Shown in pieces: positions 1,233 to 63,485 of a DNA stretch of 64,000 nt. The translations under genes and the position numbers were made by a program. The notes beneath the pieces are model-generated. The model did no database searches. It had not been told where the DNA came from and saw nothing but the letters and a program-made list of their open reading frames with translations. The DNA comes from Tragulus kanchil (Eukaryota > Chordata > Mammalia > Artiodactyla > Tragulidae). The stretch covers positions 139,459,301 through 139,523,300 of the forward strand of contig JAIOJX010000025.1 of NCBI GenBank assembly GCA_022376925.1, in the 5' to 3' direction. The stretch's first letter is position 1. Every line of letters starts with the position of its first letter.

Positions 1233-1606
1233 GATTCCTGATTTTAAGTGAGGAAAAAAGATAATCCTGTTTTTCTAAAAACTAGTTTTGTTTTAGCATG
1301 GTAAATTCTCTAAGCTGTTCATCTTTTGGAAATAGGCTTTGTACAAGGCATTTTAAACAATGAGTTTTTTTTGTTTTGTTTTAAACCTTTTAATTGAGAA
1401 GGGTAAATATAAATTAAGTCTGACAGAAAGGGTAAAATACCGAAGCCTGTTAAGAGCCATGACAGGCCAAGGTGGTGGATGAGTATTAGCAGCCCACTCA
1501 TTTGTTCATTGCCTCTAGTACCACGTCTGTAGCTTTTGCTGGTGTAGGGGAAGTGGAGTTGCTTCAGTACAGCCTGGCTGATTACCTCTTTTTTCTCCTC
1601 CCCCAG

Positions 1607-1696
1607 ATCTCTCTGGTGAGAATGCCTTACGCGTGCAAACTGTTGTTTCAGGAACTCATGTCCATGAGCATTGCGCCTCGAATGATGAGTGTTTAG
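1607..1696 (+). CDS. POLR2B: POLR2B last coding exon with stop codon (copy 1)
   Basis: This is the C-terminal 29 codons plus TAG. The exon starts after a pyrimidine-rich acceptor ending CCCCCAG at 1606. It begins [15 protein letters not shown] and ends SIAPRMMSV, the RPB2 C-terminus, and joins in frame to the exon at 577-772 (...RNKTQ + ISLV...). The tail of RPB2 packs into the clamp base against RPB1. A second, identical coding copy lies 1099 bp downstream at 2706-2795 inside a tandem duplication. A real transcript needs only one, and I treat copy 1 as the reference because its upstream intron is contiguous with the previous exon. The 834-bp intron between the two exons holds one antisense SINE. 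Confidence 0.96.
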
Positions 1697-1865
1697 CTCT
1701 TTTAAAAATCTTGGTGTCTTGTTTCTGTGATACAGCTTTTAAAAAAAAAAATTAAAACGAAAAACTGCTTCACTGTAATTAAAAGCATTTTATTTGTTTT
1801 GTTTAATGATACACATGCTTTTCTTTTTCTGTAAATAGACAATAAATTTTTGTAGATAGTCTTGG
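1697..1865 (+). other. POLR2B: POLR2B 3' UTR (copy 1)
   Basis: Sequence between the POLR2B stop and the expected cleavage zone. It is AT-rich with an internal A-run near 1741. It ends at an AATAAA (1841-1846) followed by a GT-rich stretch (about 1861-1871) typical of a downstream element. The 3' boundary is inferred from the signal and is good to about 15 bases. The second copy (2796 to about 2966) differs by a few bases, including two T-to-G differences near 1770-1780 and longer A-runs. Confidence 0.75.
1841..1846 (+). terminator. POLR2B: POLR2B poly(A) signal AATAAA
   Basis: Canonical AATAAA 145 bp after the stop codon, followed 15-25 bases later by a GT-rich element. It faces the IGFBP7 signal on the other strand at 1875-1880. 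It is copied at 2942-2947 by the tandem duplication. Confidence 0.8.
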
Positions 1866-1874
1866 TGTGTTATC

Positions 1875-1880
1875 TTTATT
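1875..1880 (-). terminator. IGFBP7: IGFBP7 poly(A) signal AATAAA
   Basis: The plus strand reads TTTATT, so the minus strand carries AATAAA, 144 bp after the IGFBP7 stop. Cleavage would fall near 1845-1862, on top of the POLR2B cleavage zone. A second minus-strand AATAAA exists at 1789-1794, inside the POLR2B 3' UTR. The duplicate copy is at 2976-2981. Confidence 0.7.
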
Positions 1881-2023
1881 TCGTATTTCACTGTGTAAAA
1901 CCAGTGAATATAGGTAAAGTGTTAGTGGACTGGATGAGAAGAAACTGGCTATCAGGCAAGAACAGGGGGTTTTGGTTACCCATGACTACTTTTTAGCTAT
2001 GCAGACTAATATATTCTGCAGGT

Positions 2024-2043
2024 TTACAGCTCTGCACCTTCAC
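2024..2043 (-). CDS. IGFBP7: IGFBP7 exon 5 coding end (copy 1)
   Basis: This is the short coding end of the last exon. On the minus strand the acceptor ...AAACAG is followed by GT, which completes a Gly codon split with exon 4, then GAA GGT GCA GAG CTG TAA. The protein therefore ends KKGEGAEL, the known C-terminus of IGFBP7 (mac25, angiomodulin), a secreted low-affinity IGF-binding protein. Phase matches exon 4, which ends on a single G. The rest of the exon is 3' UTR running down to about 1860. A second copy lies at 3125-3144. Only 20 coding bases are present, so the call rests on phase, the matching tail and position. Confidence 0.9.
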
Positions 2044-60333: not shown

Positions 60334-60629
60334 AAGTGCATTCAAGTGTGGATGAGAGACAGCTGAGTTGTCAGTGATGAATTCCTCATTTTATTCACAA
60401 GCGCAATCAAATCCAGTCAAATGGTGAATTGATTCCAAAATAAAGTTTTCATAATATTATCATTTCTTTGAAACAGTTAACCTAGCACTGGAAAAGAGCT
60501 TACTTAAGCTAAAAGAATGAGAGTATTTTTCAAAATATGGTGTCCTGATTTATACAGAGCAAAACCAAAGGAGGTATGTATTCATGGATACAAAATACCT
60601 GCTTCAAGGGGAACTTAGAACACAATCAG

Positions 60630-60820
60630 CCCTCCCTTTGTAGAGGTTCTCCAAGGAAACAGCTCTTTAAAAAGTCAGCCAACTGACAGGACAATGATCC
60701 TGACCCTCAAAGCCCAGCGCAAATGCTCGGATGAATTCCTTCAGCTGAGTTCTGTCCTCAAGCTTTAGTCTCAGGAATGCTACAGAAAATGGAAAGCCAA
60801 AGGAACAGAACTTGTGAACA
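60630..60820 (+). repeat. Left member of an old diverged direct repeat (partner 63733-63918)
   Basis: GAGGTTCTCCAAGG, CTTTAAAAAGTCA, CTCAGGAATGCTACAGAAAATGGAA and following text recur in the same order at 63740-63910 with many substitutions and indels, roughly three quarters alike by eye. Confidence 0.65.
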
Positions 60821-60824
60821 TAAT

Positions 60825-61006
60825 TTCTGGATTCAGGCAGATCCAGGTGATGTTGGGTGAGTTATCTAACATTTTGAGTCTCAGTTTTCTCACCTACAAA
60901 ATGGGGTAATAGTAAGTACATGGGCCTCATGCGATTGCTGTGATACATGCCCTGGGCTTCCCTGCAAAGGCACACAGTGAGCATTCAATAAGCAGTCACT
61001 GCTATT
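60825..61006 (+). mobile_element. MIR SINE
   Basis: CTGGATTCAGGCAGATCCAG, TTTTCTCACCTACAAAATGGGG and GTGAGCATTCAATAAGCAGT match MIR in sense orientation. Confidence 0.65.
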
Positions 61007-61194
61007 TGTCATTTCAAAACAAAGTGGGATAGGATCTGTTTTCCTGGTTAAGGAGGAAGCGGGGCCAAATGACTTTCACATGTCTAACCACCATATACTA
61101 TTATTATCCTATTTCATGTTAACGGTTTCCCCGTCAACTCAGTCCTGCCCCTCACCTCCCCAGCAGTGGTCATGAACAAAAGCTATGCCTGTTC

Positions 61195-61395
61195 ATTGAC
61201 CACTCACCCTGGGCTTTCAGATGTGCAACTAATTTAACCTTCTCAACTACTCTGTGAGGTGGTGGCCAGCTCCCAGTTTACAAATGAGATGACTGAGATA
61301 TAGGAAAGTTGAGTGATTTGCCTAAGGTCACGAGGTTTATAAATGGAAAAGCTGGGGTTCAAAACCAGACACTGATTCTAACACCCAGGCTCCTA
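61195..61395 (-). mobile_element. MIR SINE, antisense (partly copied at 62367-62515)
   Basis: TTTACAAATGAGATGACTGAG, GATTTGCCTAAGGTCACGAG and GGAAAAGCTGGGGTTCAAAA are MIR read backwards. Tandem block R starts inside it at 61251. Confidence 0.65.
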
Positions 61396-63485
61396 GCCAT
61401 CATCCCGTATTACCTTGTGCATGTGTGTGTAGTGGCTTCAGTTGTGTCTGACTGTTTGTGACCCTATGGACTATAGCCTGCCATGCTTTTCTGTCCATAG
61501 GATTCTCTAGGCAAGAACACTGGAGTGGGTTGCCGTGCCCTTCTCTACGTGATCTTCCCGACCCAGGATCGAACCCCTGTCTCTGACATCTCCCGCATTG
61601 GCAGATGGATTCCTTTCCACCAGCACCACCTGGGAAGCCTATATCACCTTCAAGTAACCAAAAATTCTTCCTTGACAGACCAACCAACCAACCGTCAACT
61701 ACACGCTGCAGCTGATGAACTGGTGGTACAAGACCCAGTGTGTGCTTTCAGTCTCCCCCATGGATCTTCCGGCTTTACAGTCTAGAACTTCCTTCCTAAT
61801 CATCAATTTGTCCCCCTCCCTTCCTATAAAATACTCTTACCCTTGACGGACCAGTGATAGAGATATGCATTCGTGGGCTTAGGGTTAAAAAATTGGCTCG
61901 ACCAAGTTCCACTGATCTTTGCTAGTGATACAGACCAGGTCCCTGGAGAGGTGGCTAATACTGATCTTCCGGAGCCCTGAACACAGTCAGGCACCTCAGA
62001 AATGCACTAAGATAAGGAGGAGGAGGTTTCTCGAACAATGGAAAGTTCCCAACAAAGCTGTCAGGACTTGAGCGGACCAGCTCCACCTGTGCTGGCCTGG
62101 GAGCTGCCTGGGGCACTGCTGGTTCCCCACCCGCAGGGAACCCAGCCCCCCTCGATCAACTCCCTGCCTCTGGCTGCAGTTGTGGCTACAGTTGCTCGTT
62201 TCCTTTTGTGCCACTGCTTCCACCAGCACCCATGGCTAATGCTCTCTCCTGTAGGAAATGACCTTGCTGCCCAAGCACTCCCTCCCTCCACAAGAGCAGC
62301 ACACGGCTGCTTGATTCAACTCAAGTGTATCCTCTCTGCTGTCTCCTTGTCGCTTTTTCAATCAAATCTGTGAGGTGGTGGCCAGCTCCCAGTTTACAAA
62401 TGAGATGACTGAGATATAGGAAAGTTGAGTGATTTGCCTAAGGTCACGAGGTTTATAAATGGAAAAGCTGGGGTTCAAAACCAGACACTGATTCTAACAC
62501 CCAGGCTCCTAGCCATCATCCCGTATTACCTTGTGCATGTGTGTGTAGTGGCTTCAGTTGTGTCTGACTGTTTGTGACCCTATGGACTATAGCCTGCCAT
62601 GCTTTTCTGTCCATAGGATTCTCTAGGCAAGAACACTGGAGTGGGTTGCCGTGCCCTTCTCTACGTGATCTTCCCGACCCAGGGATCGAACCCCTGTCTC
62701 TGACATCTCCCGCATTGGCAGATGGATTCCTTTCCACCAGCACCACCTGGGAAGCCTATATCACCTTCAAGTAACCAAAAATTCTTCCTTGACAGACCAA
62801 CCAACCAACCGTCAACTACACGCTGCAGCTGATGAACTGGTGGTACAAGACCCAGTGTGTGCTTTCAGTCTCCCCCATGGATCTTCCGGCTTTACAGTCT
62901 AGAACTTCCTTCCTAATCATCAATTTGTCCCCCTCCCTTCCTATAAAATACTCTTACCCTTGACGGACCAGTGATAGAGATATGCATTCGTGGGCTTAGG
63001 GTTAAAAAAAAATTGGCTCGACCAAGTTCCACTGATCTTTGCTAGTGATACAGACCAGGTCCCTGGAGAGGTGGCTAATACTGATCTTCCGGAGCCCTGA
63101 ACACAGTCAGGCACCTCAGAAATGCACTAAGATAAGGAGGAGGAGGTTTCTCGAACAATGGAAAGTTCCCAACAAAGCTGTCAGGACTTGAGCGGACCAG
63201 CTCCACCTGTGCTGGCCTGGGAGCTGCCTGGGGCACTGCTGGTTCCCCACCCGCAGGGAACCCAGCCCCCCTCGATCAACTCCCTGCCTCTGGCTGCAGT
63301 TGTGGCTACAGTTGCTCGTTTCCTTTTGTGCCACTGCTTCCACCAGCACCCATGGCTAATGCTCTCTCCTGTAGGAAATGACCTTGCTGCCCAAGCACTC
63401 CCTCCCTCCACAAGAGCAGCACACGGCTGCTTGATTCAACTCAAGTGTATCCTCTCTGCTGTCTCCTTGTCGCTTTTTCAATCAA
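61251..63485 (+). repeat. Tandem block R (61251-62365 / 62367-63485)
   Basis: Offset 1116-1120 bp. Contains an antisense MIR part and a Bov-tA. Differences are homopolymer lengths (G2/G3 near 61567; A6/A9 near 61890). Confidence 0.95.
61422..61641 (-). mobile_element. Bov-tA SINE, antisense (copied at 62540-62759)
   Basis: GTGGCTTCAGTTGTGTCTGA through CCGCATTGGCAGATGGATTC to CACCTGGGAAGCC. The copies differ by one base in a G-run (CCCAGGATCG versus CCCAGGGATCG, near 61564 and 62680), an indel typical of sequencing or assembly error. Confidence 0.85.

Follow-up and report, generated by a model that had tools for sequence, protein, structure and literature searches.

Eighteen uniform 1.1-kb tandem pairs in a 64-kb ruminant window, best explained as unmerged overlaps between assembly pieces

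The window analyzed here, a stretch of 64,000 b labelled as ruminant DNA, contains 18 head-to-tail direct pairs between positions 1400 and 63485. Judged from the sequence, these pairs are almost certainly overlapping sequence pieces that were left unmerged, by whatever route this came about. On the same grounds, the exons that appear twice in the window almost certainly represent a data error rather than real biology. An earlier note had explained the pairs as assembly overlaps, and this explanation is supported by the uniformity of the overlap, its independence of the sequence content, and both the concentration at the seams and the polarity of the differences between the copies.

Number, size and spacing of the pairs

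Repeats were identified by a blastn comparison of the whole 64,000-b window against itself, on the plus strand only. The direct pairs (n = 18) share 98.5–100% identity and have a period of 1077–1178 b (mean 1122, SD 28, CV 2.5%), which bears out the claim of the earlier note that 18 uniform direct pairs of about 1.1 kb lie at these places. Aligned copies measure 1074–1177 b. The exception is block F, of which the copies are short (1019 b) and of which the seam holds a leftover of 63 b. The gap between the two copies ranges from -11 to +63 b, being exactly zero at two of the 18 junctions, positive at 11 and negative at five, and the number of Ns in the window is zero. Repeats of 1.1 kb that are nearly identical are not produced by chance. 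Outside the 18 pairs and the four secondary overlaps given below, the direct repeats among those listed show 78–91% identity and are shorter than 350 b.

The junctions delimit 17 whole pieces of 1865–5998 b. Their lengths have a CV of 39% compared to 2.5% for the overlap, so only the overlap is uniform and the pieces are not. Around four of the pieces, the neighbors on either side overlap one another too, with secondary overlaps of 376, 146, 103 and 283 b; hence, some blocks have sequence in common. Two of these pieces (7600-9464 and 9457-11537) are successive.

In what follows, the two copies of a block are given together, so that the block extends from the first number to the last. The first pair, block A, occupies 1400..3599 with its junction at 2498/2499. 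Block B (6479-7591 and 7600-8714) is followed by block C (8339-9464 and 9457-10586), which has 376 b in common with block B as a third copy, and by block D (10441-11537 and 11537-12633), where the copies are 100% identical. Block E (13399-14473 and 14476-15549) precedes block F (16659-17677 and 17741-18759), after which come blocks G (18657-19809 and 19813-20962), H (21364-22469 and 22470-23573), I (24532-25653 and 25643-26762), J (29647-30738 and 30756-31844) and K (33158-34254 and 34261-35356). Block L (39099-40228 and 40249-41375) has a junction interval of 20 b. Blocks M (42078-43249 and 43256-44432) and N (44150-45291 and 45287-46429) lead up to block O (48770-49898 and 49931-51045), which has 16 differing columns among its first 150. 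The last three are block P (54772-55928 and 55926-57076), block Q (57170-58269 and 58295-59394), again with 100% identity, and block R (61251-62365 and 62367-63485).

Doubled exons and the collapsed sequence

With protein queries, tblastn located three exons of IGFBP7 on the minus strand and, on the plus strand, the final two coding exons of POLR2B; the exon numbering used here, including that of IGFBP7 exon 3, is the one we assume for these genes. Solved structures confirm the gene identity for one exon of each, namely 64 residues of RPB2 of RNA polymerase II and 38 residues of IGFBP7 (residues 159–196). Two exons occur twice. In block A, a putatively false tandem pair, the terminal coding exon of POLR2B appears at 1604-1693 and again at 2703-2792 on the plus strand; both copies encode the same 30 residues and are not identical when 100 b on either side are included. 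Block F doubles IGFBP7 exon 3 on the minus strand, with tblastn matches at 16951-17082 and 18033-18164 that extend slightly beyond the exon, and these copies are identical, 100 b on either side included. Between its splice sites, IGFBP7 exon 3 measures 110 b. As this is not a multiple of three, a transcript carrying both copies would be out of frame.

When one copy is kept at each of the 18 seams, 20,168 of the 64,000 b (around 32%) are removed and 43,832 b remain, in line with the anticipated excess of about 20 kb and a true length of roughly 44 kb. In the collapsed 43,832 b, each of the POLR2B and IGFBP7 exons found is present as a single copy, and no direct repeat of about 1.1 kb is left. 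The ruminant label agrees with a repeat motif that we take to be typical of ruminants, for which six matches with at most three mismatches occur, compared to 0.06 expected. As blocks Q and R each contribute one match per copy, four of the six are independent. Rfam yielded 0 matches at the gathering score, and searching viral contigs for exact occurrences of a POLR2B exon stretch likewise returned 0.

Differences between the copies and sequence at the junctions

A test that does not depend on reads was performed by aligning copy 1 with copy 2 in all 18 pairs, with the head and the tail of a piece defined as the 150 b at its start and at its end. The alignments comprise 20,066 columns and hold 65 difference events (29 substitutions and 36 indels). 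More than half of these (37 of 65) fall in the heads of the downstream pieces, where 8.7 would be expected, and none of 10,000 circular-shift permutations reached this number; for both ends together the value is 0.0006. Block O, the worst seam, supplies nine of the 37, so that 28 head events are left when it is set aside. In the last 150 b of the upstream pieces, five events are found compared to 8.7 expected, and the excess is thus confined to the heads. Any difference at all is seen in 10 of the 18 heads, the remaining eight (A, B, D, K, M, N, Q and R) having none. In blocks E–J, the heads of all six downstream pieces, which follow one another, contain some difference, although in F and H this is a single differing column each. 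The copy interiors differ in 31 of 14,666 columns, through 11 substitutions and 12 indels. Nine of these indels are missing in copy 1 and three in copy 2, an uneven split for which we offer no explanation.

The indels near the seams have a consistent direction. All 20 head indels, which come from seven of the 18 heads, are bases absent from the downstream piece, and all four tail indels, from three of the 18 tails, are bases absent from the upstream piece. Consensus quality is unequal between the copies, since for 24 of 24 seam indels it is the copy bounded by the seam that has lost the bases. Counted per piece end, the polarity holds at all 10 ends with indels (seven heads and three tails; two-sided sign p = 0.002). 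The sign test would give p = 1.2e-7 if the 24 indel events were taken as independent, but events within one piece are not independent (block O alone accounts for eight of the 20 head indels), so the 10 of 10 piece ends are the fair count. If the duplications were real tandem duplications, the differences should be independent of which copy faces the junction, whereas all 10 ends are polarised. Real duplication provides no reason for such a polarity, while it is expected for consensus pieces that were built independently and have poor ends.

With 37 events within 150 b as opposed to five, the piece heads (blocks C, E–J, L, O and P) are poorer than the tails, and the consensus step thus seems directional.

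Sequence between the copies was considered as well. Junction intervals of at least 6 b (n = 8) were each compared with both flanks. The 63-b leftover of block F resembles the sequence upstream of copy 1, with a corrupted stretch, and reads as the putative head of the downstream piece. Similarly, the 20-b leftover of block L resembles the sequence downstream of copy 2, with lost bases, and reads as the likely tail of the upstream piece. For six of these eight intervals, a clear match to either flank is absent. The basis for placing the duplicates at piece boundaries is indirect, consisting of the 10 out of 10 polarised piece ends and the corrupted extensions at blocks F and L. At five of the 18 junctions, the copies overlap slightly (-1 to -11 b), which resembles microhomology. 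Simulation with the collapsed sequence puts the chance occurrence of exact matches of at least 5 b at 0.6%. When aligned, the overlaps at blocks C, I and N hold mismatches or gaps, and junction microhomology was set aside with no inference drawn.

Possible origins of the seams

The following scenario best accounts for these observations. The window almost certainly consists of 19 consensus pieces that were built separately and stand one after another, two of them cut by the window ends, with the 17 whole ones measuring 1.9–6.0 kb and successive pieces sharing about 1.1 kb of one genomic sequence. The pieces would have been concatenated with the overlap unrecognized, so that each overlap appears twice, head to tail, while the genome has one copy. 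That the pieces are assembly pieces at all is something that we infer. The near-constant overlap, the variable piece length and the deletion-rich heads together point to a consensus that was made segment by segment from noisy long reads, with anchors of fixed size and failed stitching; presumably, a long-read assembler built its consensus between such anchors. Two other candidates were rejected: fixed-size polishing chunks, as the piece lengths vary with a CV of 39%, and a de Bruijn assembler with its exact k-mer overlaps, as the overlap length is not constant.

In wtdbg and wtdbg2, graph nodes measure 1024 b (four bins of 256 b), adjacent edges have a node in common, and a slight overlap between adjacent nodes is allowed. 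The window resembles the edge consensus of these assemblers in having a fixed overlap of about 1 kb between successive segments of variable length. The observed period of 1077–1178 b differs from the 1024-b node, as it is near to it but longer. The excess of the mean (1122 b) may be due to slack at the node ends. We give even odds to failed stitching of the wtdbg/wtdbg2 type, the closest counterpart known to us and the most probable source of the seams.

The earlier note had named two routes, unmerged overlaps of contig ends and gap filling, of which gap filling fits somewhat less well. Gap filling or local reassembly, in which patches are inserted with untrimmed anchors of about 1 kb on both sides, would likewise be expected to produce a constant overlap of around 1 kb with zero Ns. 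However, patches should alternate with original contigs, and the differing heads on the six consecutive pieces E–J do not fit such an alternation, although this argument is weak given the single columns of F and H. Moreover, two successive short pieces both have neighbors that overlap each other, and the original contigs would have to be just a few kb long. We therefore regard gap filling as unlikely.

Heterotype false duplication, in which both parental haplotypes were left next to each other at every seam, is much less probable still. The 11 interior substitutions over the 18 pairs could be alleles, as alleles and errors are inseparable by sequence alone, and different pieces may carry different alleles. 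Yet one fixed length occurring 18 times is not expected from haplotypes, the interiors differ in few columns (31 of 14,666) and the differences cluster at the seams. Least credible of all, to the point of being nearly inconceivable, are real tandem duplications in the animal, since these would indeed be direct, abutting and near-identical but would have to share a single unit length across 18 sites unrelated in content, with deletions polarised towards the seams, a second, frame-breaking IGFBP7 exon 3 of 110 b and an additional POLR2B terminal exon.

Unmerged overlapping pieces have a counterpart among known artefacts. According to the excerpted text of the Vertebrate Genomes Project paper (PMC8081667), homotype false duplications lie close to contig boundaries and have lengths around the read length, with one example traced to a FALCON bug, and false duplications may be mistaken for duplicated exons; false exon gains are classed in a later paper (PMC9516828, likewise an excerpt). 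As far as these excerpts go, the window looks like a dense example of homotype false duplication. It shares with the cases in both papers a near-identical repeat by putative contig boundaries, the mimicry of exon duplication and an uneven consensus quality, which in those cases differs with read coverage. Unlike the cases in the excerpt of PMC8081667, the length is here fixed near 1.1 kb and the duplication recurs every few kb with no N gap. Among the literature matches listed, no report of unstitched seams of this kind was recognized from its title or the opening of its abstract.

Should the reading as unmerged pieces hold, spurious sequence makes up about 32% of the window, which would be a warning about this assembly. 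Spurious exons could then enter the gene models of both POLR2B and IGFBP7, and counts of segmental duplications would be inflated. The seams may further be the signature of the segment stitching of one assembler, a proposal that in our view could equally turn out right or wrong; thousands of false tandem duplications of about 1.1 kb, together with false exon gains, would then be present across this assembly and in assemblies made likewise. Such seams would in that case be recognizable by sequence alone from their uniform period and polarised end deletions. The polarity of the end deletions offers a test for artefacts of this type that requires no reads.

Besides the 18 pairs, the window holds a dispersed repeat family of about 290 b (33411-33698, 47655-47959, 52076-52380 and 964-1231), with 84–91% identity between the copies, which is probably a SINE and unconnected with the putative false duplications. 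A local direct repeat of 260 b (59512-59770 and 60061-60318) looks like real diverged sequence rather than a seam, with its copies 87% identical and spaced by 549 b.
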